From a virus: a stretch of 64,000 nt of DNA. The position numbers and the translations under genes are program-made. The stretch spans positions 1-64,000 of the IMG/VR virus record IMGVR_UViG_3300028581_003594. One strand, given 5' to 3'. A model generated the notes under the pieces. That model worked only from the letters and a program-made list of their open reading frames with translations, made no database searches and had not been told where the DNA came from. How positions within the stretch are numbered: the first letter of the stretch is position 1; every line of letters starts with the position of its first letter. This document shows positions 8,759 to 53,754 of the stretch, piece by piece.

Positions 8759-8760
8759 AC

Positions 8761-8964: not shown

Positions 8965-8988
8965 CAATTTAAATTATCATGTTAAAAT
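8961..8988 (+). promoter_or_regulatory. Sigma70-like promoter, near-leaderless
   Basis: TTGACA (perfect -35) at 8961-8966, a 16-nt spacer and TAAAAT at 8983-8988. The ATG at 8997 begins 8 nt after the -10, so the transcript would start at or next to the codon. The ATG at 8979 lies inside the promoter and cannot be used by this transcript. Confidence 0.6.
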
Positions 8989-8996
8989 TAAACAAT

Positions 8997-12788: not shown

Positions 12789-13540
12789 TGAGCGATATCA
12801 ACAGAGATTCCGTAGTGCAAGGCTTGATGGACACCTGGGTGGACAAGAACAAGCCCGTCAGTGAACAGATAAGAGAAAGAGTCGTCAAGGCGGGAGATAG
12901 GTTCTTCGCAGCCGACAACATCAGCCAATACATAGAGGCGGGCGAAAGAGAAAAACTGATCATTGAGTTGACTGCAAAATTTGAGTCAGTGTTGGACAGC
13001 CTGGTGATCGACAGGGTGAATGATCCCAACAGCTCAGGCACGGGCAAGAGATTGGCCAAGATGTACATAAATGAGATAATGGGCGGAAGATATAATCCTG
13101 CTCCGGAAGTCACAACATTCCCCAACGAAGACGGCAGGTATGATCAATTGATCGTGATAAGGTCAGATATAAAAAGTATGTGTTCACATCATCATCAACC
13201 AGTGTCGGGAGTTTGTTATATAGGTTGTCTGCCAGGCAAGAGATTGATTGGATTGAGCAAATACACTCGGATAGCACAACATCAGGCAGCCCGAGGACAT
13301 CTTCAGGAGGAACTGACGGAAAAGATTGCGTACAAGATTTCAAAGCTCACAGAGAGTCCAGCGGTGGGCGTGTACATCAGAGCAAGGCACGGCTGCTGTG
13401 AGAACAGGGGCATAAGGAGCAACAACTCCAGCACACAGACAACGGTGTTGAAAGGGCTGCTGAAAACAGATCCCGGATTAAAAAACGAGTTCATGCACAA
13501 CATTCAATTACAAGAAACACAGGGTGGTACAAATGGTTAA
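12788..13540 (+). CDS. folE: GTP cyclohydrolase I
   Basis: A 250-aa FolE homologue. The enzyme converts GTP to dihydroneopterin triphosphate, the entry step of folate and 7-deazaguanine synthesis. The active-site block MCSHHHQPVSGVCYIGCLPG near 130-150 supplies the zinc ligands (Cys, His), followed by IGLSKYTRI with the usual substrate loop and ARHGCCENRGIRS near 200 with the third zinc Cys. The N-terminal 30 residues are charged and variable. Its ATG overlaps the galE stop. With the QueD-like, QueE and DpdA genes nearby, preQ0 supply for DNA modification is the likely purpose. Confidence 0.93.
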   Translation: MSDINRDSVVQGLMDTWVDKNKPVSEQIRERVVKAGDRFFAADNISQYIEAGEREKLIIELTAKFESVLDSLVIDRVNDPNSSGTGKRLAKMYINEIMGGRYNPAPEVTTFPNEDGRYDQLIVIRSDIKSMCSHHHQPVSGVCYIGCLPGKRLIGLSKYTRIAQHQAARGHLQEELTEKIAYKISKLTESPAVGVYIRARHGCCENRGIRSNNSSTQTTVLKGLLKTDPGLKNEFMHNIQLQETQGGTNG

Positions 13541-13868
13541 CAGCTCAACAGTCAGCACCTGTCCACTATTTCCCGAATTGGAAAATGAAAAGTCACATGG
13601 GTCGTTAGATCCAAATACAGGACAAGTAACTATTCCTGGTCTTTTTTCTGTACAGGCGAACGCAACACTGCCACCGGGAGTGAATGTGGGCAGTGCATCA
13701 ACATCATACACTGTGTCTCATGATGCATGGCAATCCACTGCCAACAGGAATTACGAATTAGAACTACATGAAGAATATCCTGCCCTACGTCAGGCATGGG
13801 AACATTATCAAACTATTTTAAGAATGTGCAAATCTCGAGAGGAGGAGACCGGTGAGAATAGATTATAA
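13533..13868 (+). CDS. Small conserved phage protein, unknown
   Basis: A 111-aa product from the ATG at 13533, overlapping the folE end by 8 nt (a GTG at 13524 is an alternative). The middle is a low-complexity, beta-rich stretch (GLFSVQANATLPPGVNVG); the C-terminus carries SHDAWQSTANRNYELEL and YPALRQAWEHYQTILRM, a helical pattern I associate with small conserved proteins of T4-like aquatic phages. Function unknown. It overlaps the guaC start. Confidence 0.65.
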   Translation: MVNSSTVSTCPLFPELENEKSHGSLDPNTGQVTIPGLFSVQANATLPPGVNVGSASTSYTVSHDAWQSTANRNYELELHEEYPALRQAWEHYQTILRMCKSREEETGENRL

Positions 13869-14895
13869 TCTACATCTTGATTACTCCGATGTGCTGCTGA
13901 AACCCAAAAGATCCACACTGAATTCTCGCAGAGATGTTGAGATGACTAGAGATTTCACATTTAGAAACAGCAAGAAACAATTATCTTACACTCCCATAAT
14001 AGCATCCAACATGGATGGCGTGGGCACATTCTCCATGGCACGAGTATTGCAAGATTATAAGATGCTCACAGTGATTCGAAAACACTACTCATTCAATGAT
14101 TGGAAGGCCACAGCAGGTTCGGGATTAAAATTCAAATATGTTTCTGCTTGTGTGGGCACCGGTGCCATATGGGATGAAGAAGCACTAGACTATCAAACAT
14201 TGAAACAAGTGATCGCAGCGTTTCCAGACATACCTGCCATCACAATAGACGTGGCAAATGCTTACCACGAGCAGTTCGTGGACTTCGTCAAGAGGATAAG
14301 ATCAGAATTTCCCGACAAGATCATCATAGCAGGCAACGTGGTGTCGCCAGAAATGACTGAAGAATTGATTATTAACGGAGCAGATGTTGTGAAAATAGGT
14401 ATCGGTCCGGGCTCTGTGTGTACCACAAGAACACAGACCGGAGTGGGAGTGCCACAGTTTTCTGCCATAGTTGAGTGTGCTGATGCTGCCAATGGAGTGG
14501 GTGGCCATATCATTGCTGATGGTGGTTGCACCCAATCAGGAGACATTGCCAAGGCCTTGGGTGCAGGTGCTCATTTCGTCATGTTGGGCGGCATGTTGGC
14601 AGCTCACGATGAATCCGAATTGGAATTGCGAGATGGCAAGAGGGTGTTCTACGGCATGAGTTCGGAATCAGCATTTGAGCAACACGGTGCAAGAAAAGAC
14701 GGCTACAGAGGCACCGAAGGTAAAACAGTACTATTGGATAATAGAGGACCAGTGAGAGATACTGTGGAACAGATTCTGGGTGGTGTCAGAAGCTCTTGTG
14801 TATATATTGGTGCAAGAAGAATCAAAGACATGCCTAAATGTGCTCATTTCGTAAGAGTTAATAATATACAAAATAGAATATTCGATGGAAAATAA
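13852..14895 (+). CDS. guaC: GMP reductase
   Basis: A 347-aa protein, the same length as E. coli GuaC and alignable throughout. GMP reductase converts GMP to IMP with NADPH, releasing ammonia. Visible blocks are DYSDVLLKPKRSTLNSR near 10-26, IIASNMDGVGTFSMA near 48, IDVANAYHEQFV near 130, IIAGNVVSPEM near 160, KIGIGPGSVCTTRTQTGVG with the catalytic Cys near 190, IADGGCTQSGDIAKA and FYGMSSESA. The substrate loop is of GuaC rather than IMP dehydrogenase type and CBS domains are absent. It starts at a GTG with a strong AGGAGG upstream, and overlaps the phosphoribosyltransferase gene. Confidence 0.95.
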   Translation: MRIDYNLHLDYSDVLLKPKRSTLNSRRDVEMTRDFTFRNSKKQLSYTPIIASNMDGVGTFSMARVLQDYKMLTVIRKHYSFNDWKATAGSGLKFKYVSACVGTGAIWDEEALDYQTLKQVIAAFPDIPAITIDVANAYHEQFVDFVKRIRSEFPDKIIIAGNVVSPEMTEELIINGADVVKIGIGPGSVCTTRTQTGVGVPQFSAIVECADAANGVGGHIIADGGCTQSGDIAKALGAGAHFVMLGGMLAAHDESELELRDGKRVFYGMSSESAFEQHGARKDGYRGTEGKTVLLDNRGPVRDTVEQILGGVRSSCVYIGARRIKDMPKCAHFVRVNNIQNRIFDGK

Positions 14896-15352
14896 CGCAA
14901 CTGTAGAAAAATTATACTTTACTAATATACAGATGAGGAATGCTCTGTTACAGATCGAAGACAAACTAGTGCATGACATGTGGCTGCCTGATATCATACT
15001 TGGTGTCAACCGAGGTGGTTGCATTCCGGGAGTTTATCTTTCCCACAGGTTGAAGAAAGAACATGCTGTTTTGGATGTGAGATTGAGAGATCACGCCGCC
15101 AAGCCCAACCTATCTGTGCTGGAACGAGAGTTTGCTTTCCAAAAAAAAATATTGATCATTGATGATATCAATGACACCGGAGCCACCTTCCAATATATCT
15201 TGGACAATTTTGGACGCCATGACAGAGTGAAGTTTGCGGTGGTGATAAACAACAGGCCTTCCCCAGTAAAAGTTGACTATTTTGGTTATGAGATAGACAA
15301 AAACGAGAATCCGCAATGGGTGGTTTTTCCATGGGAAGAATGGCAAAAATAA
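14885..15352 (+). CDS. Purine phosphoribosyltransferase (XGPRT-like)
   Basis: A 155-aa type I phosphoribosyltransferase. LGVNRGGCIPGVYLSHRL near 39-56 is the PPi loop region, KILIIDDINDTGATFQYIL near 87 is the PRPP-binding signature with its acidic pair, and NPQWVVFPWEEW at the C-terminus matches bacterial xanthine-guanine phosphoribosyltransferases. It would turn a free 6-oxopurine plus PRPP into the nucleotide. Coupled to guaC (11-nt overlap), it forms a guanine to GMP to IMP route. The base specificity cannot be fixed from sequence. Confidence 0.8.
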   Translation: MENNATVEKLYFTNIQMRNALLQIEDKLVHDMWLPDIILGVNRGGCIPGVYLSHRLKKEHAVLDVRLRDHAAKPNLSVLEREFAFQKKILIIDDINDTGATFQYILDNFGRHDRVKFAVVINNRPSPVKVDYFGYEIDKNENPQWVVFPWEEWQK

Positions 15353-15371
15353 AAAACAACAGGAAAAAAAA

Positions 15372-16013
15372 ATGATACAGTTTGTACAGGACCTTTTAAA
15401 AGGCACGGACAAGATATTGGTCAGGAACCTTGTGATATTGCATACACTTATTATCGCTGTGAGCAATTATTTGGTCACCATACGATTCAGTTTGTTCGCG
15501 GAAAAAATCAATATATTGGGATGGGAGACCAACTTTCCCTTGGCAGCGGCAGCATTCACTTTTCCGTTAGTGGTCGTGGCCAGTGATCTCACTGTGAGAT
15601 TGATCGGCAAGCAGAGCGCAAGGGCAGTGGTGGCGTTGGCAATCATACCGGCCATTGTGGCATCTGTGTTAGTATTATTGTATTTGGGAGACAAGCACGC
15701 CTATAGAGTGGGCATAGCCAGCGGCGTGGCCTATGGCATAGGCACACTGTTGGATGTATATGTTTTTCAAATAATCAGAGAAAAATTTAAAACCAATTGG
15801 TGGGCGGCACCAGCACTGAGCATGATAGCTGCCAACATCATCGACACTTACATATTCTTTTACACGGCGTTCTATCCACAACCATGGGTGCATGCGGTGG
15901 CCTTCAACAACACCATGGTCAAGATCATAGTGGGACAGGTTGTGTTCGTACCGGCCTATGGCATACTGCTTACATACCTGTCCAAGAAATTGAACAGGAA
16001 ATTGGTAGGATAA
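15372..16013 (+). CDS. yhhQ: YhhQ-family queuosine precursor transporter
   Basis: A 213-aa integral membrane protein with about six hydrophobic segments (near 18-35, 52-70, 84-104, 112-130, 145-165 and 183-203). The signature FPLAAAAFTFPLVVVASDLTVRLIGK corresponds to the conserved PxxFxxxDxxxExxGK-like region of the vitamin-uptake-like (VUT/YhhQ) family. These inner-membrane proteins import preQ0 or preQ1. SYLVT-like and Lys-rich ends fit cytoplasmic termini. Placement between purine salvage and queE supports a role in supplying deazaguanine to DpdA. Confidence 0.8.
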   Translation: MIQFVQDLLKGTDKILVRNLVILHTLIIAVSNYLVTIRFSLFAEKINILGWETNFPLAAAAFTFPLVVVASDLTVRLIGKQSARAVVALAIIPAIVASVLVLLYLGDKHAYRVGIASGVAYGIGTLLDVYVFQIIREKFKTNWWAAPALSMIAANIIDTYIFFYTAFYPQPWVHAVAFNNTMVKIIVGQVVFVPAYGILLTYLSKKLNRKLVG

Positions 16014-16029
16014 GGATATTTTTGGTAAG

Positions 16030-16058
16030 TTGACTTCCGATCTAAATATCCGTATAAT
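16030..16058 (+). promoter_or_regulatory. Sigma70-like promoter giving a leaderless mRNA
   Basis: TTGACT at 16030-16035, a 17-nt spacer and TATAAT at 16053-16058. The ATG at 16065 is 6 nt beyond the -10, where transcription should begin. It must originally have driven the cupin gene, whose first codons follow it directly. Confidence 0.75.
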
Positions 16059-16064
16059 ATACAT

Positions 16065-16154
16065 ATGAGCAATAAAGCAGGAAAAATTTATAAAGCTAGT
16101 AAAATCCATAAATACTTTTATGAAGTTATATTGGATCAAAAGACCAGAACATAA
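16065..16154 (+). pseudogene. Orphaned first codons of the cupin gene
   Basis: This 29-residue frame starts MSNKAGKIY and ends at TAA 16152-16154. The intact cupin gene at 16697 starts MGNKAGKIW. Seven of the first nine residues match, while the DNA differs at synonymous sites. The duplicated start flanks the GIY-YIG gene, as expected when a homing endonuclease gene inserts near a gene start and the downstream gene is rebuilt. Confidence 0.75.
16108..16115 (+). promoter_or_regulatory. Late-promoter-like ATAAATAC
   Basis: ATAAATAC ends 4 nt before the GIY-YIG ATG at 16120. It lies in AT-rich sequence, so chance is more likely here than at the structural genes, but late expression of homing endonucleases is known from T4. 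Confidence 0.4.
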
Positions 16155-16707
16155 AGATATGTATCAAGAAGGTTATATAGGAATTACAACTACAGAAGGT
16201 ATAAATGGGAGATTATATACACACTTCAATAAATTAAAAAACAATTCTCATCCAAACCCAAAATTACAAAACGCTTATAACAAAGATTCTAATCTGATAG
16301 TTGAAACAATTTACAAAGGATCAATAAAGAATTGTATAAAAAAAGAAAAAAAACTTAGACCCTATAAAAATGTAGGATGGAATATTTTAGAGGGTGGAGG
16401 ATTACCTCCTTTACACAATGGTTATATTTGGTTTACAAATGGAAAAAAAAATAAATTAGATATTGATTGTCCGACTGGTTACTGGCCGGGCAGATTAACA
16501 GTTCAAGGAGAAAATCATGGACATTATGGAAAACCAAAAAAATATAAAACAATAGGATTTAAAAAAGGATATACACCTTGGAATAAAGGACTTTCTTTAG
16601 GACCAAAAACAATAGTAAAATGTCCTAATTGTAATAAAAAGGGTGGGTTGCCTATAATGAAAAGATTTCATTTCACAAATTGTAAGGAGATTAATAATGG
16701 GAAATAA
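16120..16707 (+). CDS. GIY-YIG homing endonuclease
   Basis: A 195-aa endonuclease. The catalytic module has YQEGYIGITTT near 15-25 (the GIY-YIG strands) and NGRLYTHFNK with the catalytic Arg near 31. The middle is basic with GYTPWNKGLSLG, a NUMOD3-like DNA-contact segment. The C-terminal CPNC, HFTNC pattern is a likely zinc finger often seen in phage homing nucleases. The gene is extremely AT-rich, overlaps the cupin start by 11 nt and supplies that gene's AAGGAG (16683-16688). It is flanked by two copies of the cupin start, marking it as a recent free-standing insertion. Confidence 0.9.
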   Translation: MKLYWIKRPEHKDMYQEGYIGITTTEGINGRLYTHFNKLKNNSHPNPKLQNAYNKDSNLIVETIYKGSIKNCIKKEKKLRPYKNVGWNILEGGGLPPLHNGYIWFTNGKKNKLDIDCPTGYWPGRLTVQGENHGHYGKPKKYKTIGFKKGYTPWNKGLSLGPKTIVKCPNCNKKGGLPIMKRFHFTNCKEINNGK

Positions 16708-17089
16708 GGCTGGTAAGATATGGGGTTCTACAGAACTAATACATGCCAATGGCGTGTTGGAATTCCATAGGATAGATTTCAAGGCAGGTGGCGTTTGTTC
16801 CAAGCACCAGCACAAGTACAAGTGGAATGGCTTCTACGTGGTCTCGGGCAAGATGAAGATCAAGGTCTGGCAGAGGGATCAGCAAGATCTCATTGATGAA
16901 ACTGTATTAGGACCGGGAGATTTTACTAAAGTTAAACCAGGATACTATCATCTGTTTGAAGGTTTGGAAGATGGCATGGCTTTCGAACTTTATTGGGCTG
17001 AATTCAACCACGATGACATACAGAGAGAGAACGTGGGTCACTTCAGGAGCGGCAACGTTGTGAGACTGGATAAGAAAGATAAAAAATAA
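16697..17089 (+). CDS. Cupin-domain protein
   Basis: A 130-aa single-domain cupin. GGVCSKHQHKYKWNGFYVVSG near 34-54 carries the first metal-binding His/His pair and the conserved Gly, and VLGPGDFTKVKPGYYHLFE near 75-93 is the second cupin motif with its His. Such proteins are often isomerases or metal-binding sugar enzymes; I cannot assign a reaction. The start was rebuilt after the GIY-YIG insertion. It is coupled to the DUF6614-like gene (shared base at 17089) and lies between the YhhQ and queE genes. Confidence 0.8.
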   Translation: MGNKAGKIWGSTELIHANGVLEFHRIDFKAGGVCSKHQHKYKWNGFYVVSGKMKIKVWQRDQQDLIDETVLGPGDFTKVKPGYYHLFEGLEDGMAFELYWAEFNHDDIQRENVGHFRSGNVVRLDKKDKK

Positions 17090-17502
17090 TGGCCGACATC
17101 TATCACATATGGTGCGACCCAAAGGAAGGGGTCGACGGCAAGGACTTCGCAGAGAAGATCAGGATCTTCCTGGGAGAACTGGTCAGAGACGGCAAGCTGG
17201 AGTCATTCAGGGTCATGAGGATGAAGTTGGGATTCAGGAGCATGGAACTTCCGGACTTCCACATCATGATGGAGACCAAGAACATGCAGCAGCTGGATGA
17301 CGCCATGAGCCTCGTGGGACGCAGGACCGGAGAATTGGAAGGACACCATGTGGCCATGAACTCCCTGGTTGACAAGAACACAATACAACATGCATTGTAC
17401 AGAGACTTCCCTGACGCTTTCCTTGGCAAGACTGGCAATGAGCCAAGCGAGGAAATAAAAGAAATATTAAAGGCAGTGGATCACTTTCATGAGCAAGATT
17501 AA
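17089..17502 (+). CDS. DUF6614-like protein
   Basis: A 137-aa alpha/beta protein. The pattern YHIWCDPKEGVDGKDFAEKI, RVMRMKLGFRSMELPDFHIMMET and GHHVAMNSLVDKN matches what I remember of the DUF6614 family, in which the ferredoxin-like fold has conserved His and Glu residues. No activity is known to me. It overlaps queE by 14 nt, so it is produced with it, and a small accessory role in the same pathway is possible. Confidence 0.65.
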   Translation: MADIYHIWCDPKEGVDGKDFAEKIRIFLGELVRDGKLESFRVMRMKLGFRSMELPDFHIMMETKNMQQLDDAMSLVGRRTGELEGHHVAMNSLVDKNTIQHALYRDFPDAFLGKTGNEPSEEIKEILKAVDHFHEQD

Positions 17503-18349
17503 GATAGCAGAACTATTCTACAGCATACAGGGCGAGGGTCGCTACATGGGAGTGCCTTCCGTGTTCATGCGCACATTTGGCTGCAACTTCACCTGTGCGG
17601 GTTTTGGCCTAACCAAAGGCATGCGCAGTGACGAGAATGACCGAGTGTTTGAACAACACAAACTGCATCCTTTCAAAGATTACAAAGAGCTGCCTCTGGT
17701 GAACACAGGCTGTGATTCATATGCATCATGGGATCCACGATTCAAAGATCTATCTCCCATGCTGACATCAGATGCCATTGTGGAAAGAACTATGGAGATA
17801 TTGCCTCACAGACGATGGGTGGATGAACATTTCATATTCACAGGCGGAGAACCATTGCTGGGTTGGCAGAGAGCATATCCTGATTTGTTGGAACACGCGA
17901 AGATGCAAGAACTCAAAGAAATAACATTTGAGACCAATGGCACTCAAAAATTACATGTTGATTTTAAAAAATATTTGCAAGAATGGACACAACGCAACAA
18001 CAGAAACAAAGACAGCATTACATTTTCGGTCAGCGCAAAATTAAGCGTGAGCGGAGAAAAACGTGAAGAAGCCATACTGCCTGAAGTGGTGACAGAATAT
18101 GGTGAAGTGGGTCATGTGTATTTGAAATTTGTGGTGGCAGATCAAACAGATGTGCAGGAGGCCATGGAAGCAGTGAAAGATTATCGTAAAGCAGGATTCT
18201 CGGGATCAGTATATCTGATGCCTGTGGGTGGAGTGGAAAGCGTCTACCACATGAACAATAAAACAGTGGCAGAACTGGCAATGAAGATGGGATATAGATA
18301 CAGTGATAGATTACAGGTGCCTCTGTTTAAAAATGCGTGGGGCACATAA
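17489..18349 (+). CDS. queE: 7-carboxy-7-deazaguanine synthase (radical SAM)
   Basis: A 286-aa QueE homologue. QueE converts 6-carboxytetrahydropterin to 7-carboxy-7-deazaguanine. FYSIQGEGRYMG near 10 is the family signature, TFGCNFTC near 29-36 gives the first two cluster cysteines, and TGGEPLL near 117 is the SAM-binding GGE motif. The third cysteine appears to be in VNTGCDSYASWD near 73, so the CxxxC and the last Cys are separated by roughly 37 residues instead of 2. This extended cluster loop is the phage-type arrangement as I recall it. It ends the deazaguanine block. Confidence 0.88.
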   Translation: MSKIKIAELFYSIQGEGRYMGVPSVFMRTFGCNFTCAGFGLTKGMRSDENDRVFEQHKLHPFKDYKELPLVNTGCDSYASWDPRFKDLSPMLTSDAIVERTMEILPHRRWVDEHFIFTGGEPLLGWQRAYPDLLEHAKMQELKEITFETNGTQKLHVDFKKYLQEWTQRNNRNKDSITFSVSAKLSVSGEKREEAILPEVVTEYGEVGHVYLKFVVADQTDVQEAMEAVKDYRKAGFSGSVYLMPVGGVESVYHMNNKTVAELAMKMGYRYSDRLQVPLFKNAWGT

Positions 18350-21239: not shown

Positions 21240-22343
21240 ATGGTGAGCAAAAAAGAAAAGGGCACAGCGGTTGGCTCTCAGAACAGAACCGTAACTCCAA
21301 ATGAAGCAAAGGCAGCACTATCGCATTGCCTGCAATTACAAAGACCACTAATGATGTGGGGTGCACCTGGTATTGGTAAATCTGATATCGTCAAACAGGT
21401 CGCAGAAGAACAAGATAGATCAGTGATTGATATCAGGTTGCCATTGTGGGAACCCACAGATATCAAAGGTATTCCTTATTACAACAGCAAAGAAAACAAC
21501 ATGGTCTGGGCTCCACCAGCGGAACTGCCCACCGATCCGGAATCCACTGATATCATATTCCTGGACGAGCTTAATTCGGCTGCTCCTGCTGTGCAGGCCG
21601 CGGCATACCAATTGATATTGAACAGGAGGGTTGGACAATACCATCTTCCCAAGGGCGTGGCCATAGTGGCTGCGGGCAACAGGGACGCGGACAAGGGCGT
21701 GACCTACAGGATGCCGGCGCCGTTGGCCAACAGGTTCGTACACATCGAACTGAGAGTGGACTACGAAGATTGGATGCAGTGGGCGACCCTGCACTACATA
21801 CACCCAGACGTGGTGGGCTATGTCACATTCGCCAAACAAGATTTATATGATTTTGATCCCAAGGGATCATCACGTTCTTTCGCAACTCCAAGATCGTGGA
21901 GTTTCGTCAGCCAACTTCTATCGGACAGCCTGCCTGAAAGTACGCTCACAGACCTCGTGGCAGGCGCAGTAGGAGAGGGCCTGGCCGTTAAGTTTATGAA
22001 CCATCGTAAAATTAGCGGCCAGCTACCTAACCCATCCGACATACTGAGCGGCAAGGTCAAGGATCTAAAGACCAAGGAGATATCTGCGATGTATTCTCTC
22101 ACCGTCAGCCTGTGCTATGAACTGCAACAGGCGCACATAGACAAGCAGAAAAATTGGAACGACATGGCGGACAGGTTCTTCAACTACATGATGGACAACT
22201 TCGAGACCGAGCTGGTTGTGATGGGTGCCAAGATCGCTCTCACAAACTACAAATTGCCATTTGATCCAAGCAAGTTAAAATCATTCGATAGGTTCCATAA
22301 GAAGTTTGGCAAGTATGTCATAACTGCCATGGAGTCTAAATAA
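21240..22343 (+). CDS. MoxR-family AAA+ ATPase
   Basis: A 367-aa AAA+ protein. Walker A is WGAPGIGKSDIVKQV near 39-53, Walker B is IIFLDELNSA near 100, and the sensor region is VAAGNRDADKGVTYRMPAPLANRF near 140-165, with the arginine-bearing end. MoxR ATPases remodel partner proteins and typically work with a VWA-domain protein encoded next door, as here (4-base overlap region at 22343). The likely job is ATP-driven maturation or insertion of a metal-dependent complex; the client is unknown. Confidence 0.9.
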   Translation: MVSKKEKGTAVGSQNRTVTPNEAKAALSHCLQLQRPLMMWGAPGIGKSDIVKQVAEEQDRSVIDIRLPLWEPTDIKGIPYYNSKENNMVWAPPAELPTDPESTDIIFLDELNSAAPAVQAAAYQLILNRRVGQYHLPKGVAIVAAGNRDADKGVTYRMPAPLANRFVHIELRVDYEDWMQWATLHYIHPDVVGYVTFAKQDLYDFDPKGSSRSFATPRSWSFVSQLLSDSLPESTLTDLVAGAVGEGLAVKFMNHRKISGQLPNPSDILSGKVKDLKTKEISAMYSLTVSLCYELQQAHIDKQKNWNDMADRFFNYMMDNFETELVVMGAKIALTNYKLPFDPSKLKSFDRFHKKFGKYVITAMESK

Positions 22344-23587
22344 TGGCTGCGACAGATCAAAAAATTCTAGACAAACTGGTCACGGCGAGGATCGCGCTGT
22401 TGTTGAAGCATCCTTTCTTTGGCAACTTGGCCACGAGGCTCAAAATCGTCAACGCGGACGACTGGTGTCCAACCGCTGCCACTGATGGCAGACACTTCTT
22501 CTACAACATCAAATTCATCGACAGCCTAACACCGAGAGAGACCGAGTTCCTGTTCGGACACGAGGTACTGCACAATGTGTTCGAGCACATGCTGTTGAGG
22601 AGCGAGGGCAGAGATCCTGAGATATGGAACGTGGCTTGCGACTACGCGGTAAACCAGATATTGGTGGACTACAGGATCGGCGAGATGCCCAAGGGCAAGA
22701 AGGGCGAGAACAAGGGCTTCCAGGACGACAAGTACAAGGACTGGGCTTCGGAAAAGATCTACGATGAGCTGATGAAACAGGTCAAGAAGAACAAGGTGGA
22801 CCTAAAGAAATTGGGACAGCTCCTAGACGAGCACATAGAATGGGGCAAGGGCCAGAGACAAGGCGAGGGTGAAGGCAAGGACAAGGATCAGCAGGGACAA
22901 GGATCCGGCGGAAAACCCGTGTACACAAAAGAAGAACTTAAAAAGATCAAGGATGAGATAAAAGAAGCCATGATGTCAGCGGCACAGAGCACAGGTGCGG
23001 GCAATCTCCCTGGCAGCATACAGAGGATGATAAGCGTGCTCACGGAACCAAAATTGAACTGGAGAGAGATCATACAGCAACAGATATTGAGCACCATGAA
23101 GAGCGACTACACGTTCATGAAGCCCAGCAGGAGGAGCTGGCACATGGACGCCATCCTGCCCGGCATGGTCAACGTGGACAGCATTGACATATGCCTGGCC
23201 ATTGACGCATCTGGATCCATAAGTGAACAGCAGTGCAGGGATTTCCTGGGAGAGATCAGGGGCATAATGGAACAGTACAAGGATTTCAAAATACATCTTT
23301 GGTCCTTCGACACCAAGGTTTTCAACCCCAAGATATTCACGCCAGACAACATGGACGAACTAACGGAATACGTGATCGGCTCCGGTGGTGGCACAGATTT
23401 TGACTGCAACTGGGAGTTCATGAAGGAAGAGGGCATAGAGCCCAAGAAATTCATCATGTTCACGGACGGATGGCCCTTTGACAGCTGGGGTGACAAGGAC
23501 TACTGCGACACCATATTCCTTATCAACAACAGCTACGAGAGGAACATACAGGCCCCATTTGGCATGACGGTGAACTATGAGGATTAA
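22343..23587 (+). CDS. Metallopeptidase-like plus VWA protein (DUF2201/COG3864 type)
   Basis: A 414-aa protein with two domains. The N-terminal domain has LFGHEVLHNVFEHM near 70, a HExxH-like zinc site (HEVLH) with a following His, as in the putative metallopeptidase domain of COG3864. A Lys/Gly/Gln-rich linker spans about 110-205. The C-terminal von Willebrand A domain has AIDASGSISE near 285 (MIDAS DxSxS), GGGTDFDC and FTDGWPFDSW. Pairing with the MoxR ATPase resembles cellular MoxR-VWA systems. Whether the HEVLH site is a working protease is not known. Confidence 0.85.
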   Translation: MAATDQKILDKLVTARIALLLKHPFFGNLATRLKIVNADDWCPTAATDGRHFFYNIKFIDSLTPRETEFLFGHEVLHNVFEHMLLRSEGRDPEIWNVACDYAVNQILVDYRIGEMPKGKKGENKGFQDDKYKDWASEKIYDELMKQVKKNKVDLKKLGQLLDEHIEWGKGQRQGEGEGKDKDQQGQGSGGKPVYTKEELKKIKDEIKEAMMSAAQSTGAGNLPGSIQRMISVLTEPKLNWREIIQQQILSTMKSDYTFMKPSRRSWHMDAILPGMVNVDSIDICLAIDASGSISEQQCRDFLGEIRGIMEQYKDFKIHLWSFDTKVFNPKIFTPDNMDELTEYVIGSGGGTDFDCNWEFMKEEGIEPKKFIMFTDGWPFDSWGDKDYCDTIFLINNSYERNIQAPFGMTVNYED

Positions 23588-23840
23588 TCCAAAAAATTTC
23601 CATCCGAGGAAACTGGATCGAATCCCCCCGCATTTCAAGGTCATTGCATTACCAAATCAAATAGAATACCAGCAACACAAGACCACCCGCTGGATACACG
23701 CACACTGCGCTGGCAGGTTCGCCTTGGTAAATGATGTGCAATACCAAAATGACCAAGTCACATCAGTGACCAAGATCGGCTTCGAAGAGCCCAGCGACCT
23801 CACCATGTTCATACTCAGCGGCATGGCCCAGAATGCGTGA
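23577..23840 (+). CDS. Small phage protein, unknown
   Basis: An 87-aa basic protein whose ATG lies inside the last codons of the VWA gene. IPPHFKVIALPNQIEYQQHK and TRWIHAHCAGRFALVNDVQY suggest a small beta-rich fold with several histidines. Translation is probably coupled to the MoxR/VWA pair, so it may be a third component of that unit. Confidence 0.65.
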   Translation: MRINPKNFHPRKLDRIPPHFKVIALPNQIEYQQHKTTRWIHAHCAGRFALVNDVQYQNDQVTSVTKIGFEEPSDLTMFILSGMAQNA

Positions 23841-23908: not shown

Positions 23909-24223
23909 ATGGCAACAAAAAAAACAAAAAAAGAGACTGAGTCAGTAGCGCCGGCCATGCCAGCTGCCAACGCTCAACCAACTACGCCTCCCCCACAGGG
24001 ACAGGCGCCAGCAGCACCAGATCTAACCATAGCTGATCTAAAAAATATAGGCACCATACTTGACGTGGCTTCCACTAGAGGAGCCTTCAGGGCCAACGAG
24101 ATGGCTACCATAGGATTGGTGTACAACAAACTTCAGATGTTCCTGGCCAGAGTGGCTCCAGAGACCAAACCTGAAGACAACAAAACTGCAACTGCACCAG
24201 CGCCAACAGCGCCAGGAAAGTAG
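23909..24223 (+). CDS. Pro/Ala-rich small phage protein
   Basis: A 104-aa protein. Disordered Lys-rich and Pro/Ala/Gln-rich ends flank a conserved-looking core, LTIADLKNIGTILDVASTRGAFRANEMATIGLVYNKL. Such TRGAFRxxE cores recur in small proteins of marine T4-like phages as I recall. Function unknown. Confidence 0.7.
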   Translation: MATKKTKKETESVAPAMPAANAQPTTPPPQGQAPAAPDLTIADLKNIGTILDVASTRGAFRANEMATIGLVYNKLQMFLARVAPETKPEDNKTATAPAPTAPGK

Positions 24224-24226
24224 ACA

Positions 24227-24751
24227 ATGTTAAACCTATATGACAAGCTAGTGATGGATGCTGCCGGCACGGGCGGCACCACAGAAGCTGCACGTGTTTT
24301 CAAACACATCGGCGTGCTGAAAGAAGACAATACGCCGGTGGTGATCGTGTTCCGCACAATACCAAACGAACCAAATTTCTGTTTGGTGGTGGGGCCTAAA
24401 TTCCTGCCCGACAACAGTCGAGACGCCCTGATGCGAGCTGTGGAGAGCAAGGACGGCCAGTCAAGTTTTGAACTGGGCACCCACATTGCCAGGCTCAATT
24501 TCCAGGATGGAGTCAACATGCTGGCATCGTTGCACGTGGACAACTATCTCAAGAAGTTCCAGACCAAGGACATCATAGTGACCTATGGTGCCGGTGATGC
24601 GGGCAAGATATCATTGGACAAACTCAATCAGATGATAGCGGATGACATGAAAGTTTCCATCAATGAGCTAGCGGTCAAAGAGAACATAGTGCTGTCCAAG
24701 AAAGAGAAATCCAACAAAAAATCCAATGCCAAGGAAGCTGCCAAGAACTAA
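24227..24751 (+). CDS. Conserved phage protein, unknown
   Basis: A 174-aa protein of mixed alpha/beta character (VVIVFRTIPNEPNFCLVVG, SSFELGTHIARLNF) with a disordered Lys/Ser/Asn tail (SKKEKSNKKSNAKEAAKN). No catalytic motif seen. It overlaps the next gene by 26 nt. Confidence 0.7.
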   Translation: MLNLYDKLVMDAAGTGGTTEAARVFKHIGVLKEDNTPVVIVFRTIPNEPNFCLVVGPKFLPDNSRDALMRAVESKDGQSSFELGTHIARLNFQDGVNMLASLHVDNYLKKFQTKDIIVTYGAGDAGKISLDKLNQMIADDMKVSINELAVKENIVLSKKEKSNKKSNAKEAAKN

Positions 24752-26682: not shown

Positions 26683-28007
26683 TAACTGGCCTCTGCGGGA
26701 TATAATTTGAAGAATGTGTCCTTGGTGAACTTCCAAGAATAAGTCTCTTCTATCTTGGCAACATCGAAATTACAATCTTCCACAAATTTTTTAGCATCAT
26801 GTGCTCCTCGTTTAAGCCATGTGTTGCCTGTAGACAACCATTTTTCAATCCTATATCCCGTTTCCACTGTGGGACGTTGTTTATTCCATAATATTAATTT
26901 GCTGACTTCTCTAAAGGCATTTTTCCATGCTGTGTAGTTGTCTGGGCACAATAATGCTGTGTTTGCCACTATAGGTACGACTTCATGTTTGCTATAAAGA
27001 GTGAAATCCAGACCTGGGGTATCTGGAGTGTCGAGGCATAAAGATCTGGAAAAAAGATTGATATTAAATGTACCATATTCCAATCCAAGTTCGGATAATC
27101 TTGCATGAAATATATAATGTCTTTTATTTTTTGCTCTATCCACAGTGTAATCAAACATAAAATTCTCGTCCACCTGGCTTTTTGCAAACACAGCATAAAA
27201 ATATTCTTGGCTGGATTGTTCGGCCGCTTGTTTATATGCTGCTGTTCTTCCATCCACTCCTCGCACCCAATACAGTTTATTTTTTAAGTTGTTTTTTTGT
27301 AAATGTGTTTTTAACAATTCATAGTTTCCCTCTTCGAATGGTTCTCCGTTGGATATGAAGGCTATATCAAAACAATCTTTTTCCATGTTGTTCTGCAATC
27401 GATACAATAAGTGATAGTCATATATCTGCGTGTGTATCTTATCCACGGCTGCATTTGGTACATAGAATGTGGTGCCATCGATGTAAATTTTTAGATCTTC
27501 CCAATAAGAGGGATATATTTTTTTATCGTTTTCCTTTTCAAAATGTTTAACGTATCTGCAGGGAGGTCCCGGCGTCCTTGTCAGACAATCGATGTTATTG
27601 CTTAGATCGTAGGGGGATTCTGCAATGTTATAATCATAGGATATATTTTTTACAGTATGGTAGTTGATATCTTTGTAGTCTCGTAGATGGTCTATTTGTT
27701 GTTCTGTATACTTCTTTGGTATTAAGAATGTATCACCTTCTTTCTGTCCTTCTATGGACCAAACATGAATTTGTTCTGTTTGGAATTGTTCGGGAATAAA
27801 CATAAAATCAAAATTTCGATAATCAATTAAACTGGAAAGCAACCAAAGATATCGTGTGCTGCATGATGAGATCTGGGATCGTATTATTTCGTGGTAGCTC
27901 TGCAGGAATGGCATGACTCTCACGTAAGGAAATACTTTTTTAATATTCTTTATATTTTGTTCACTTTTACTATTTTTAAAATCTATACAGATACAATCAA
28001 AAGCCAC
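26679..28007 (-). CDS. Tandem glycosyltransferase-like protein
   Basis: A 442-aa protein starting at a GTG with TAGGAG upstream. The C-terminal half (from about 210) resembles the glycosyltransferase-like gene at 39484-40374: FISNGEPFEEGNYELL, WVRGVDGRTAAYKQAAEQ, YFYAVF and VDENFMFD. The position of the DGDN acidic motif of that relative reads AKSQ here, so the metal-binding DxD appears lost. The N-terminal half looks like another copy of the fold (FDFMFIPEQ, IHVWSIEG). The DNA is strongly AT-rich compared with the rest of the window, as in the next gene, suggesting recent acquisition. It ends the long minus-strand unit. Confidence 0.65.
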   Translation of the reverse strand: MAFDCICIDFKNSKSEQNIKNIKKVFPYVRVMPFLQSYHEIIRSQISSCSTRYLWLLSSLIDYRNFDFMFIPEQFQTEQIHVWSIEGQKEGDTFLIPKKYTEQQIDHLRDYKDINYHTVKNISYDYNIAESPYDLSNNIDCLTRTPGPPCRYVKHFEKENDKKIYPSYWEDLKIYIDGTTFYVPNAAVDKIHTQIYDYHLLYRLQNNMEKDCFDIAFISNGEPFEEGNYELLKTHLQKNNLKNKLYWVRGVDGRTAAYKQAAEQSSQEYFYAVFAKSQVDENFMFDYTVDRAKNKRHYIFHARLSELGLEYGTFNINLFSRSLCLDTPDTPGLDFTLYSKHEVVPIVANTALLCPDNYTAWKNAFREVSKLILWNKQRPTVETGYRIEKWLSTGNTWLKRGAHDAKKFVEDCNFDVAKIEETYSWKFTKDTFFKLYPAEASY

Positions 28008-29091
28008 AAAATTCTCCTATCATATCACAAACATATTTGATTTCATTCTTCCTTAGATGTGGATAGATTGGAAGACTCAAACATTCTTTTGAAATTTTTT
28101 CAGCATTAGGGAAAGACTCTTTATTATTAAAATATTTTGTGTGTGGCAATATCGTGTTGTAATGTATTTGTGTTTCTATGCCTTTCTTATTAAGAAATTC
28201 TTTTAAATTATCTCTATCTTTACATAATATCACAAATTTGTGATTGGACCCAGTTGTGTTTGATTGTGTGTCAATAATTTTAACATTCAACAATCTTTTT
28301 AAATGTTGACTGTATTGTTCTCTGACTTGTTGCCTCCTGTCTTGCAGAGTATTAAAATCCATCATCAACACATTCAATTGCGCAGCTTGACTTTCTGATA
28401 TTACAGAATTATATCCATAATCTATGTCAGCACCATTCACTCCATGGTATCTTAGAGCTAGACATTTTTCCTCTATTTCTTTGTCATCGGTTAATATCAT
28501 ACCACCACTGCCAAGAGCAGGCAAATTTTTTGTAGGAGAGAAACTTAACACACTGATATCTCCCAGACTGCCAGAATGTGACTTTTTATAAACGGCTCCC
28601 AACGATTGAGCAGCGTCTTCCACTAACAATATTTTATTTTTACGACAATACTGTTTCAACCTATCATAGTCAGCTAGATTGCCATAAAGATTTACATATA
28701 CTAAAGCATCGGCTTTGATACCTTTGATATCACTAATCTGAGCATCTACTCCCACGTCTACGAATTTCATATGCGCACCGGTACGTTTTATTGCTGTGGC
28801 GGTGCTGAGGAAGGATAGTGCTGGACATATCACTGTTTTACCTGGTCCTATTCCATGCGATCGTAGTGCAAAATACAGTGCATCCGTGCAGCTCTGCACT
28901 CCTATCGCATGCTCCCGTCCCACATAATTTGCTACCAAATCTTCAAACATTCCTAATTCTGAATCTACTTTTTTTCTACCCATTAGCACGTTGCCTGTTC
29001 GCCAAACGTCTCGGGCAGCTTGATCTAGTTCTCCCTTGTAACAAGAATAGATTCTATCTAATCCGTTAAATTTTATTTTGTAACCACTCAT
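27997..29091 (-). CDS. DegT/DnrJ/EryC1-family sugar aminotransferase
   Basis: A PLP-dependent aminotransferase of about 364 aa from the ATG at 29091 (an ATG at 29121 would add 10 residues). VGVQSCTDALYFAL near 65 and ICPALSFLSTATAI near 88 are the cofactor-binding segments, LLVEDAAQSLGA near 155 carries the Asp/Gln that contacts PLP, and SFSPTKNLPALGSGG near 183 holds the Schiff-base Lys. HYNTILPHTKYF is a usual C-terminal segment. The family adds an amino group to keto-sugars linked to nucleotides. The gene is AT-rich and overlaps both neighbours. Confidence 0.88.
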   Translation of the reverse strand: MSGYKIKFNGLDRIYSCYKGELDQAARDVWRTGNVLMGRKKVDSELGMFEDLVANYVGREHAIGVQSCTDALYFALRSHGIGPGKTVICPALSFLSTATAIKRTGAHMKFVDVGVDAQISDIKGIKADALVYVNLYGNLADYDRLKQYCRKNKILLVEDAAQSLGAVYKKSHSGSLGDISVLSFSPTKNLPALGSGGMILTDDKEIEEKCLALRYHGVNGADIDYGYNSVISESQAAQLNVLMMDFNTLQDRRQQVREQYSQHLKRLLNVKIIDTQSNTTGSNHKFVILCKDRDNLKEFLNKKGIETQIHYNTILPHTKYFNNKESFPNAEKISKECLSLPIYPHLRKNEIKYVCDMIGEFCGF

Positions 29092-30007
29092 AATATTTCT
29101 CGATGCCTTTATTAAAATCATACTTAGGCATATATCCTAAAAAACTTTTAGCCTTTGTCACATCCAGCGTACCTCTGGAAGGATACAATGAATTTTTGCC
29201 CGTGTCTATAATTTTGCTTTTGCTTCCGGTCAGCTTGATAATTTTCTCTGCCGCTTCTCCTAAACTGCTTGCATTGCCTGCTGTGATATTGAATGTTTGA
29301 TTGGCAGCTTTTTCCGCCAAAGCACAACTGATGATGCCATCGGCTGCATCCTCTACATAGGTGAAATCGATCTTATTTTCATTGTCATGGACATAGATAT
29401 TCTCGTTTAACATTGCGGCTTTAAAAAATTTGCTTAAAACTCGATCTGGTATATCGCCTGCTCCATACACCCCACTGGGCCTGGCTATCACGTACTCGAG
29501 ACCAAATGCCCTGTTGAATTGCTGTGTTAGTCTCTCTCCTGACAATTTGGCCTCTCCATAGATGTTGACCGGAGCAGGCACGCTGTTCTCATCCGCTCCA
29601 TCCTTGAAGTCCCCGTATACCATGCTGGAGGACACATAAACAAAGCGCTTGACTCCGTGTTCCACGCAGTCCTGCAACATGCCCGTGGTGCCCACCACTA
29701 TGTTCTCCACTCCCAGCTCTGGCTGCTCATTGACTATCTTGGCCCTGGGATAACTTGCCAGGTGTATCACTATGTCTTGTTTTCTCAACCACACGCGATC
29801 CAGAGGCACGGTCACATCTCCTGATTTCTTTGTTACCTGATTCCAGTTCCTCTGACGCCATTGACAAAGACTATCTAAAGAATCCCTATCAATCACATCA
29901 TAGGTTTCTCCAGAATCTATTGTGGTAATTTTATGGCCCATGCGACATAATTTCTCCACAATCCAACTGCCAATGAATCCTTCTCCTCCGGTGATTAAAA
30001 TTTTCAT
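29066..30007 (-). CDS. NAD-dependent epimerase/dehydratase
   Basis: A 313-aa extended SDR. MKILITGGEGFIGSWIVEKL is the NAD-binding motif, VYVSSSMVYGDFK the active-site Ser region, NIYGEAKLSGE the YxxxK pair and ARPSGVYG the substrate loop. It is a paralogue of the plus-strand epimerase at 25711-26682. Together with the DegT enzyme it can provide a 4-keto or epimerised nucleotide sugar for amination. It overlaps the carbamoyltransferase by 4 nt. Confidence 0.87.
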   Translation of the reverse strand: MKILITGGEGFIGSWIVEKLCRMGHKITTIDSGETYDVIDRDSLDSLCQWRQRNWNQVTKKSGDVTVPLDRVWLRKQDIVIHLASYPRAKIVNEQPELGVENIVVGTTGMLQDCVEHGVKRFVYVSSSMVYGDFKDGADENSVPAPVNIYGEAKLSGERLTQQFNRAFGLEYVIARPSGVYGAGDIPDRVLSKFFKAAMLNENIYVHDNENKIDFTYVEDAADGIISCALAEKAANQTFNITAGNASSLGEAAEKIIKLTGSKSKIIDTGKNSLYPSRGTLDVTKAKSFLGYMPKYDFNKGIEKYYEWLQNKI

Positions 30008-31494
30008 AGTACCCTTACATTATACTTGGTTTCAAAGCGTTCCGCATCCTTGATGTCATTTACCATGGGCTCGCCCTTGATATTGAGAGATGTGTTCAAC
30101 AGCATGGGACAGCCGGTCTTTTGCTTCCATGTTTTTAACAGTTGGTAAAAACCTGGATTCTGTGTTTTATTCACTGTTTGCACACGGCTGGTGCCGTCAT
30201 GATGCACAATGGCAGGAAAGTCTTTACCATGCTTACAACGGGCTATAAATTGCATATAAGGGGTGTTTACAACGCACTTAGGTACCTCAAAATACTCGTG
30301 TAGATCCTCCTCTAGTATGGCGGGTGCAAATGGTCGAAATTGCTGTCTCTTCTTGATGCGATTTACCAAATCTTTGATATCATCGCCTCTTGGATCTGCC
30401 AGCAATGATCTATTACCAAGAGCCCTGGGTCCAAACTCTGCCCTGCCATTGGCCACGCCCACCATGCGATTGTTTTCCAATTCTTTCATGATGGCATCCA
30501 CAGGGTATTCTCCTGCTATGTTATGTCCCAGGAAAGGATGACGCCAATTGATGTGTCTTCGTTCAGCTGCCGCGATACACCCTATGGAACTGCCAGCATC
30601 TCCTGGATTGGGCATGATCCATATGTTGTCAAACAATCCAAGATCGGCCAATCGACTGTTGGCCACACAATTTAGGGCCACCCCACCTCCATACACCAGG
30701 TTTCTCTTGTTGCCGTATGGACTGACCGCTATCTGACCATTTGGTATGTACTGTCGAGCCTTGCGCCACAGTTTTTCTAATTCTTGTTCCGTAACTTTTT
30801 GTATGCTGGCTGCCAGATCCATGGGATCAGCTTCGGGTAGCCAGTTGTGCAATCCTCTGTGTAGATTTTTCTTCAATGTGAAATCTCCATCCCTGTCCAC
30901 GAGATCCTTGTAAACCTCTGCCACATGTCTGGGTTCTCCGTATGCTGCCATGCCCATTAGGATGTACTCTTCTTCGGCGGGTTTTAGTCCAACTCGCTGT
31001 GTGAACGCTGAATACAGCACACCCAATGAATGAGGATATTTGATCCTGTAGCATAGTTCTAATCGCTTGCCCTGGGCTTGCCATATTGAGGTGGTATCCC
31101 ATTCTCCTATGGCATCCACTGTCAACACCATGGCATCATAGAATGGCGATGTGAAAAACCCCGCAGCGGCGTGAGATTCATGGTGACCCACATACTGATC
31201 TATCTTTATTCCAAATGCATTTAGATAATTTTGTGGCATGTTAGTTCTGGAGAAAACTTCCGCCCATTGCCCAGCATAGGCCTGTCGAGTCTTTTTTAAC
31301 AATGGTCGCTCATAATAGACCACTCGGTCCCATGGTCCGTATTCGCGAGCCTCGTTGACTATTTGCCAATTGAGATACGGATCGTTCTTGTCCTTGCTGT
31401 ATCTCTCTGCGTGTGCCGCCCATAGGATCTCTCCATCTTCAACCACTGCCATGGCGGCGTCATGATTGAGGCAGTTGATTCCTAAAGTTCTCAT
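30004..31494 (-). CDS. NodU/CmcH-type carbamoyltransferase
   Basis: A 496-aa protein with the two-domain layout of NodU/TobZ. The N-terminus MRTLGINCLNHDAAMAVVED is the YrdC-like actin-fold start, GHHESHAAAGFF near 102 is the metal-binding His motif, VYGGGVALNCVANS near 268 is the nucleotide site, and RAEFGPRALGNRSLLADPR near 350 is the C-terminal signature. These enzymes transfer a carbamoyl group, via carbamoyl-adenylate, to a hydroxyl of a sugar or antibiotic. Here it probably decorates the sugar made by the neighbouring epimerase and aminotransferase. Confidence 0.92.
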   Translation of the reverse strand: MRTLGINCLNHDAAMAVVEDGEILWAAHAERYSKDKNDPYLNWQIVNEAREYGPWDRVVYYERPLLKKTRQAYAGQWAEVFSRTNMPQNYLNAFGIKIDQYVGHHESHAAAGFFTSPFYDAMVLTVDAIGEWDTTSIWQAQGKRLELCYRIKYPHSLGVLYSAFTQRVGLKPAEEEYILMGMAAYGEPRHVAEVYKDLVDRDGDFTLKKNLHRGLHNWLPEADPMDLAASIQKVTEQELEKLWRKARQYIPNGQIAVSPYGNKRNLVYGGGVALNCVANSRLADLGLFDNIWIMPNPGDAGSSIGCIAAAERRHINWRHPFLGHNIAGEYPVDAIMKELENNRMVGVANGRAEFGPRALGNRSLLADPRGDDIKDLVNRIKKRQQFRPFAPAILEEDLHEYFEVPKCVVNTPYMQFIARCKHGKDFPAIVHHDGTSRVQTVNKTQNPGFYQLLKTWKQKTGCPMLLNTSLNIKGEPMVNDIKDAERFETKYNVRVL

Positions 31495-31600: not shown

Positions 31601-32406
31601 GTTTTGCTCCTTTTTGTGTTGTACAGATCTAGAAATTTACCGGACATCAATCCAGCGGCATCCACGTGTGCCTGGTCCAAAGGATGCGTGGTGCCTCGCG
31701 GATAGTCGTTCAGCAATGTCCATTGATTGAACCCCATGTTCCTTTCTCCAAAAAAATGCCATTTGCCTAGGTCAAGCTCATTATACAACGCATTCATCAA
31801 AGGGTCAACTTGGCTGAGTGGTTTGAGTTCATCCCAGAACAATGTGTTGTCCGCCAGCGTGAAAAAATAACCTATGTTCTTCTTTTCCAATATGTTCTGC
31901 AGCCAAACAATGCTCTTCCAGCTGAGATAGGTCTCATGATACTGGTTGGCCGCGTGCCTATACAATGCGTCAGCGAATGGCCCCACTCCCGTGCTGCGCA
32001 TGTCCTCCCTGCGTTTTTTCCAAACTTCCAGCTGTGGCTCGCTGGTGGCCAATTTCTTGTGTACCTCCGCCTGTGTGTCCGAGGTGTCCCAGGGAGTTAT
32101 GGTGGCCCATCTGGTCTTTTCCAGCACTGCGTTCCTGGGCATGGCCCAGTCGTAGCGAGAACAGAAGCTCCACATGATGGCCACGAACATGTCACGTGAT
32201 TGGTTCTGCGACACGTACTCGAACACACGCCGCGCTATGCCCGCGTTTCCTGTGCCTGGATATGACACAGTGGCGTAGTCCGCATTGGCGCTGGTGGCCA
32301 GCAGTGCCGACCATGACTTCTTGGAGGGGACCTTGCCGTCCTTGTCATCAGACAATTCGTGCCCGTAAGTGAAGCTGCAGCCCCCAGATAATAACAGTCT
32401 ATTCAT
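31597..32406 (-). CDS. SGNH-hydrolase-like protein
   Basis: A 269-aa protein. LLSGGCSFTYGHEL at the N-terminus is a GxSF variant of the SGNH Gly-Asp-Ser block, VSYPGTGNAGIARRV near 48 gives the Gly/Asn oxyanion region, and THPLDQAHVDAAGLM near 243 supplies the DxxH-like C-terminal pair. The family contains esterases, deacetylases and O-acetyl-group enzymes. A second SGNH-like gene lies at 37459-38100. The context suggests action on the sugar or other product of the cluster. Without the classical GDS the activity is uncertain. Confidence 0.7.
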   Translation of the reverse strand: MNRLLLSGGCSFTYGHELSDDKDGKVPSKKSWSALLATSANADYATVSYPGTGNAGIARRVFEYVSQNQSRDMFVAIMWSFCSRYDWAMPRNAVLEKTRWATITPWDTSDTQAEVHKKLATSEPQLEVWKKRREDMRSTGVGPFADALYRHAANQYHETYLSWKSIVWLQNILEKKNIGYFFTLADNTLFWDELKPLSQVDPLMNALYNELDLGKWHFFGERNMGFNQWTLLNDYPRGTTHPLDQAHVDAAGLMSGKFLDLYNTKRSKT

Positions 32407-53745: not shown

Positions 53746-53754
53746 GTATTTATT
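53746..53754 (-). promoter_or_regulatory. Late-promoter-like AATAAATAC (minus strand)
   Basis: On the minus strand AATAAATAC (53754-53746) lies 6 nt before the ATG at 53739 and overlaps the end of the giant gene (stop at 53750). This fixes the start of the downstream structural protein. Confidence 0.6.

Follow-up and report, generated by a model that had tools for sequence, protein, structure and literature searches.

Neighboring genes for a MoxR-type AAA+ ATPase and a partner protein with a VWA domain have been described in phages before. According to the available text of a 2007 study, phage 0305phi8-36 encodes two subunits of a "MoxR-type metalloprotein chaperonin" (PMC2147016), and the accessible part of a 2014 comparison assigns genes 24 and 25 of phage N4 to a core of 14 genes shared by 25 N4-like phages (PMC4193335). 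A 2021 survey of jumbo phages (Iyer et al., PMC7824862), in the portion available, reports for its group 2.2 a MoxR AAA+ ATPase next to a vWA protein whose N-terminal domain is a metallopeptidase, and proposes roles in virion assembly and proteolysis. The pair analyzed here, a moxR gene followed by a gene for a metallopeptidase-like VWA protein (vwa), lies in a 64,000-nucleotide stretch of viral DNA (positions 1–64,000 of IMG/VR record IMGVR_UViG_3300028581_003594, full length 72,693 bases; "the window" in the following). It is thus not a new arrangement, but one that is widespread in phages and was already described in 2007 and 2021.

Outside this group, the nearest systems are NorQ-NorD and a pair of the archaeal virus ATV. 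NorQ-NorD shares with our locus a MoxR ring and a VWA partner with a metal ion-dependent adhesion site (MIDAS) of the type DxSxS-T-D, and available parts of reports from 2023 and 2026 describe its mechanism, with this site and a finger of the VWA protein inside the pore of MoxR (PMC9976466, PMC13036017); there, however, the N-terminal domain of NorD is not described as a metallopeptidase, and the client is nitric oxide reductase. In ATV, compared by description from the accessible text of a review, the MoxR protein p618 is found in the virion and binds the VWA protein p892 (PMC4124505); this pair differs in being archaeal, in its 618-aa ATPase and, as far as the 2021 survey could be consulted, in the absence of a peptidase domain (PMC7824862).

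The window pair is encoded on the plus strand, the ATG of vwa overlapping the moxR stop codon by one base, and an 87-aa open reading frame (ORF) overlaps the end of vwa by 11 bases (Table 1). The moxR product matched Pfam AAA_3 (E = 8e-9) and AAA_5 (E = 5e-7), with AAA_3, AAA and AAA_5 all exceeding their cut-offs, and its PHROGs match was phrog_1297 (E = 1.5e-104), against E = 1.3e-5 for phrog_249, a CobS-like family of porphyrin biosynthesis. Its best sequence matches in the PDB were midasin chains (E ~1e-7), and it scored 20.8 bits with the bpMoxR model of ternary conflict systems, below the cut-off of 27. Of the features of the MoxR class of AAA+ proteins, Walker A (residues 41–48), the acidic Walker B pair, sensor 1 and a neighboring VWA gene were found; residue conservation was scored in an alignment of 86 sequences, from which KpS8 was dropped. 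The median ratio of nonsynonymous to synonymous substitution rates (dN/dS) of moxR against its relatives was 0.055 (40 of 72 pairs with dS < 2). A gene annotated as "anti-sigma factor" in LL12 and KpS8 was rejected as moxR orthologue; in LL12 the orthologue is a divergently placed MoxR gene.

The partner protein consists of two DUF2201 parts. DUF2201_N (PF13203, "putative metallopeptidase domain") was matched with E = 3e-41 and 142 bits (cut-off 23.2), and the VWA-like DUF2201 (PF09967) with E = 1e-14 and 54.9 bits (cut-off 26.4). Among PHROGs the protein belongs to phrog_1314 (E = 4e-109), which is labeled "HNH endonuclease"; we rejected this label, as the domains are those of DUF2201 and no HNH family was among the Pfam matches at E ≤ 0.1. 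Many phage records with VWA homologues bear the name "HNH endonuclease", and the label, contradicted by the domains, propagates through annotation.

Residue conservation in the partner was assessed in an alignment of 88 proteins, 75 from the clade of the window (the window included) and 13 from isolate phages. In addition to the residues listed in Table 1, A98 was present in 88 of 88; T351 was missing solely in three cut contigs and D375 solely in four. The sole isolate-phage exception at the catalytic glutamate was Atu_ph07 (8295–9584), which has Q instead of E74 and retains the metal-site residues. In a broader sample of 80 loci, the pattern HExxHxxxxH...D...N including the glutamate and a MIDAS-type pattern were each found in 80 of 80. 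The median dN/dS of vwa was 0.079 (9 of 74 pairs with dS < 2). The key motifs of both proteins are thus intact and under strong purifying selection, and their conservation is far above chance. The preliminary description of the window, made from its letters alone, had seen a resemblance to cellular MoxR-VWA modules and had noted that the Walker, MIDAS and zinc-like motifs are intact; both points are confirmed. A lack of conservation of the HEVLH and MIDAS residues among homologues, which it had named as evidence to the contrary, was not observed in the 88-protein alignment or the broader 80 loci.

Table 1. Positions of the gene pair, its conserved residues and the adjoining genes within the window (residue counts refer to the alignments described in the text).
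Feature	Position	Strand	Remarks
MoxR-type AAA+ ATPase, 367 aa	21240..22343	+	phrog_1297; N4 gp24 family
Walker A, residues 41–48, GAPGIGKS	21360..21383	+	G44, K47, S48 in 86/86
Walker B acidic pair D109-E110	21564..21569	+	86/86
Sensor-1 N147	21678..21680	+	86/86
R165, candidate arginine finger	21732..21734	+	86/86
DUF2201 protein, N-terminal metallopeptidase-like and C-terminal VWA, 414 aa	22343..23587	+	phrog_1314; N4 gp25 family
HEVLH, residues 73–77	22559..22573	+	H73, H77 in 88/88; E74 in 87/88
H82, candidate metal ligand (HExxHxxxxH)	22586..22588	+	88/88
D100 to N104, candidate metal-site residues	22640..22654	+	each 88/88; helix 92–109 in model
MIDAS DxSxS, residues 288–292	23204..23218	+	D288, S290, S292 in 88/88
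MIDAS T351	23393..23395	+	85/85 uncut contigs
MIDAS D375	23465..23467	+	84/84 uncut contigs
Small downstream ORF, 87 aa, clade-specific	23577..23840	+	downstream in 65/65 testable loci; not an obligate partner
Conserved upstream neighbor, 131 aa	20763..21158	+	homologues beside the pair in Phosso, XaC1, CBB, 121Q
Conserved downstream neighbor, 104 aa (phrog_13789)	23909..24223	+	homologues in XaC1, CBB, S16, 121Q, PA5oct
Conserved downstream neighbor, 174 aa (phrog_15894)	24227..24751	+	homologues in XaC1, CBB, PA5oct, 121Q, phAPEC6 virion list

An AlphaFold2 model of the partner protein, built from 30 sequences, reached a mean predicted local distance difference test (pLDDT) score of 69, with about 80–90 across most of residues 1–150. 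In this model H73, H77 and H82 are placed on a helix spanning residues 64–83, with D100 and N104 on the next one, and residues 281–395 form a VWA alpha/beta fold; VIA-align gave Z ~7 over about 105–120 residues to integrin/VWF-type A domains, which is middling by the scale of the tool. In a structural search with the model, the VWA part alone was matched and no metallopeptidase was among the matches listed; by sequence, the solved structure closest to the N-terminal part was MJ1213, with a non-significant E of ~0.3.

A tblastn search of 50,697 phage records located the VWA protein in 728 and MoxR in 824 of them, every match below 60% identity; as the 728 and 824 places fall in equally many records, both genes are single copy. 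Among isolates, the PA5oct-like jumbo phages of Pseudomonas come closest (51% identity for MoxR, 43.5% for VWA). In N4 (Schitoviridae, NC_008720), gp24 and gp25 form a homologous adjacent pair with the same motifs, but this phage is a podovirus, its VWA protein is ~27% identical, the next gene encodes a dCTP deaminase, and what follows VWA is not homologous to the flanking genes of the window. In Bacillus phage G, gp569 had been considered by eye as a VWA candidate and was dropped, as it gave no VWA match. From IMG/VR, a close sample comprised 80 loci of 89 confirmed, and the broader profile search retained 80 of at least 590 matches. At least five contigs occur in both samples, which are therefore not independent. 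The moxR gene was present in 76 of the first 80 loci (median identity 88%); in 64 of the 72 that could be tested it began 1097–1106 bases before the VWA start, and in eight slightly further upstream. In the broader sample it lay immediately upstream of vwa in 79 of 79 testable loci. The family is thus found in hundreds of phages and is core in the model phage N4, yet no experimentally tested function was found in the literature searched: no gp24 or gp25 phenotype was encountered, and the terms MoxR, VWA, gp24 and gp25 had no match in the CRISPRi-ART, phage DEV and N4 lysis papers.

Cellular genomes were compared as well. In one phylum sample, 16 of 299 genomes gave a DUF2201_N match, and in a second sample 6 of 247 did. 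One match of the first sample (G001) lies on a phage-like contig within a metagenome bin and is excluded from the cellular counts. In the loci fetched, 13 cellular proteins matched the phage VWA profile, and 10 of them have MoxR within ~1.5 kb. These MoxR-DUF2201 pairs (Pseudomonadota, Bacteroidota) resemble the phage pair in the adjacent MoxR, the MIDAS and the metal-site residues, but their neighbors vary, and the catalytic glutamate is gone from 5 of 13: E74 is kept in eight, replaced by H in four (L118, L119, L120, L122) and by Q in one (L139). H73, H77, H82 and D100 were present in 13 of 13 and N104 in 12 of 13, an invariance that is partly by construction for the 12 cellular proteins used in the tree below, which were picked by a pattern demanding H, H, H, D...N; the remaining protein (L141), the only significant cellular match outside this pattern, has D at position 104 and keeps the glutamate. 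In a FastTree phylogeny of 37 proteins (12 cellular; position 74 excluded), E74 losses fell in three places, the clade of four (support 0.97), L139 and Atu_ph07. We read the metal site as the constant of the domain, with catalysis apparently kept in phages and repeatedly lost elsewhere. New, from the alignments and the tree, are the retention of the metal-site residues in both phages and cells and some three losses of the glutamate, most of them in bacteria. The available text of the 2021 survey treats the domain as peptidolytic (PMC7824862), whereas in some of the relatives examined here the glutamate is dispensable. As the metal site is invariant and the catalytic residue dispensable, their roles could be cleanly separated by experiment.

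The phage-like contig of G001 (L088/L117) carries MoxR, VWA, the small ORF and the 23909 and 24227 homologues together. L088 (NZHE01000019.1), labeled a Rickettsiales metagenome-assembled genome, is probably phage DNA that ended up in a bacterial bin, since it holds the phage block and its MoxR has 85% identity. By eye, an extra ORF of ~230–260 aa with a similar N-terminal region precedes the cellular pair in at least three loci (L129, L130, L134).

Our preferred reading, which we hold tentatively, is that the pair is an ATP-driven MoxR-VWA remodeler of phage proteins whose head depends on metal and is probably proteolytic. It is favored by the adjacency and shared direction of the two genes, the conserved ATPase, metal and MIDAS residues and the modeled VWA fold. 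The MoxR protein would assemble into an ATP-driven ring, onto which the partner would dock via its C-terminal VWA domain, and the MIDAS metal of the partner would grip the client. The N-terminal domain, with its putative metal site (H73, H77, H82, D100, N104), would probably clip or process the client, as the catalytic E74 is retained in phages. The client would most likely be a protein complex of the phage itself, with virion parts as first and the replication machinery as second candidate. A bolder version, in which the pair is a new kind of ATP-dependent protease, with a VWA adaptor providing in trans the zincin-type metallopeptidase that the MoxR ring drives, and in which this peptidase stays catalytically alive in phages but has become a non-cleaving, metal-binding chaperone in several bacterial lineages, seems to us rather unlikely.

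Another possible task is the maturation of metalloenzymes. The preliminary description had pointed to several iron-sulfur enzymes in the phage, and six radical-SAM matches were indeed found in the record of the window; its suggestion that the pair could serve their maturation gains no support, as a general role, from the co-occurrence in other phages that it had proposed to check. Among 14 isolate-phage records carrying the pair or its MoxR, six had a radical-SAM match at E ≤ 1e-3 (LL12, Atu_ph07, CBB, Phosso, S16, W70), and eight had none at this threshold (PA5oct, N4, XaC1, KpS8, V1245, G, Slicko, PaWF01), although PA5oct has a divergent QueE. With eight of 14 records lacking a match, the pair is independent of radical-SAM enzymes in general. 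In the marine clade of the window, 32 loci had 9.9 kb or more of upstream sequence; 28 of them held a QueE-like gene and 25 a QueD-like gene, and a link confined to this clade is possible. In the window, positions 12788–18349 hold QueD-like (ORF 16697, by eye), QueE-like, GTP cyclohydrolase-like and IMPDH/GMP-reductase-like genes, possibly a pathway of 7-deazaguanine modification of DNA or tRNA.

Metal insertion or cofactor maturation in the manner of NorQ-NorD, CoxD-CoxE or CobS-CobT would have the machine open a metalloenzyme of phage or host and the conserved N-terminal site carry or present the metal without any cleavage. The proximity of QueE in the marine loci fits this scheme, as do the better conservation of the metal-site residues than of the catalytic glutamate in phages and bacteria, the insertion of metal by NorQD, the nearest known mechanism in the text available, and one cellular pair (L134) near CO-dehydrogenase-like genes, identified by eye. 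Nevertheless, we consider it distinctly unlikely: N4, like the other seven records listed above, has the pair and no radical-SAM match, no constant metalloenzyme neighbor was seen in phages or in seven cellular loci, and E74, which a mere carrier would not need, is retained in 87 of 88 proteins and in 80 of 80 of the overlapping broader sample. The neighborhoods of the seven cellular loci also revealed no shared client. Remodeling of the phage's own proteins is more likely the job of the pair than maturation of iron-sulfur enzymes.

Published virion proteomes bear on the client, and the virion-borne ATV p618 and the assembly role proposed in the 2021 survey favor our preferred reading as well. 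The phAPEC6 virion table of 62 proteins, in the part available, lists gp265c, an "ATPase" of 49.52 kDa (6 peptides, 19%), along with gp259c (thymidylate synthase, 35.51 kDa), gp262c (25.02 kDa, 1 peptide) and gp267c (35.96 kDa). In the near relative 121Q the computed masses are, in the same order, 35.51, 25.03 (121Q_566), 49.51 (MoxR) and 35.95 kDa; as masses and gene order agree, we equate gp265c with the MoxR orthologue and gp262c with the homologue of ORF 24227. The PA5oct MoxR record is noted as detected by electrospray ionization tandem mass spectrometry (ESI-MS/MS), as is that of RNase H. In Staphylococcus phage UFV_DC4, according to the accessible data, an AAA protein next to an annotated metallopeptidase gene was detected with one peptide, the likeness being one of annotation. 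In CBB, MoxR and VWA (216 and 217) lie inside the structural region 201–261, near the virion-listed CBB_213 and CBB_214 in the portion of the source available. The occurrence of a MoxR orthologue in published virion proteomes (phAPEC6, PA5oct), its VWA partner not being listed in the parts available, is to be added to the earlier descriptions, and the MoxR half is possibly packaged.

Several observations weigh against a remodeler of phage proteins with a proteolytic head. In the available virion lists, the VWA protein (54.06 kDa in 121Q) is absent from the 62 proteins of phAPEC6, and both CBB proteins are absent from the 55 of that phage; the PA5oct vwa record, too, has no mass spectrometry note. 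MoxR may have co-purified, since the phAPEC6 list, as available, also holds RecA-like protein, SSB, topoisomerase, PhoH and thymidylate synthase. N4 gp24 and gp25 are middle, not late, transcripts in the accessible text (PMC4193335). Genes with DNA or nucleotide functions, such as dCTP deaminase, DNA polymerase, RecD-like helicase and thymidylate synthase, frequently adjoin the pair. Proteolysis is moreover not universal, because the catalytic glutamate is missing in Atu_ph07 and five of 13 cellular relatives.

Part of this evidence would suit a remodeler of replication and nucleotide metabolism, which reshapes or dismantles protein-DNA or enzyme complexes in mid-infection: besides the middle expression in N4, neighbors of this type recur in separate lineages, among them an RNase H/pol I-like exonuclease, and RecA-like protein, SSB and thymidylate synthase accompany MoxR in the phAPEC6 list as far as it is available. 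Gene neighborhood is weak evidence, however, most phage middle genes are of the DNA or nucleotide type, and CBB and 121Q also have structural genes directly upstream, so that we regard this explanation as fairly improbable.

Host takeover or counter-defense, with the pair as an ATP-driven protease adaptor disabling host proteins, appears unlikely; takeover of host proteins had also been raised in the preliminary description. MoxR-VWA pairs do operate in bacterial conflict systems, according to the published text available, and a metal protease would suit the removal of host proteins. Against this stand the strong constraint on both genes (dN/dS 0.055 and 0.079), their core status in N4-like phages and their single copy in the phage records, as host-directed genes tend to be patchy and fast-evolving; PADLOC, furthermore, gave nothing better than E = 9e-4 for MoxR and nothing for VWA.

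The third ORF, which the preliminary description had taken for a small coupled gene, has no significant Pfam family and no significant match in the phage-record collection. It was found in 65 of the first 80 loci (median identity 48%), and its median dN/dS was 0.13 (9 of 64 pairs with dS < 2). Its position downstream of vwa held in all 65 testable loci; coupling did not, as it abuts vwa in 26 and is separated from it by other sequence in 39. It was unmatched among the genes tested in CBB, XaC1, S16 and 121Q and only weakly matched in Phosso (E = 1.5e-7). We rejected it as a universal third component; with at most a weak match in the distant phages tested and frequent displacement within the clade, it is a real but lineage-specific gene and not a deeply conserved partner.

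The gene order of the clade is 18411, the exonuclease 18726, 19706, 20181, 20467, 20763, moxR, vwa, the small ORF, 23909, 24227 and 24726, with small insertions. Profile searches placed a homologue of 20763 beside the pair in the four phages of Table 1 and, more weakly, in PA5oct. Homologues of 23909 directly follow VWA in XaC1, CBB, S16 (where 23909 alone was tested among the downstream neighbors) and 121Q, and in XaC1, CBB and 121Q a homologue of 24227 also follows the pair; in PA5oct both are nearby on the other strand. The flanking genes common to the window and distant jumbo phages are 20763, 23909 and 24227. The median dN/dS of orf23909 was 0.22 (13 of 34 pairs with dS < 2), and Foldseek with a model of orf24227 returned nothing at E ≤ 0.001.

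Elsewhere in the window, a run of radical-SAM genes (two with SPASM) on the minus strand at 32399–39605, together with a carbamoyltransferase and a DegT-type aminotransferase, 27997–31494 included, looks like a sugar or small-molecule pathway. The phage is likely a T4-like myovirus, since large proteins of the record resemble T4-type baseplate proteins by eye. An ORF of 3407 aa occupies positions 53750–63973 on the minus strand, amid probable tail genes.

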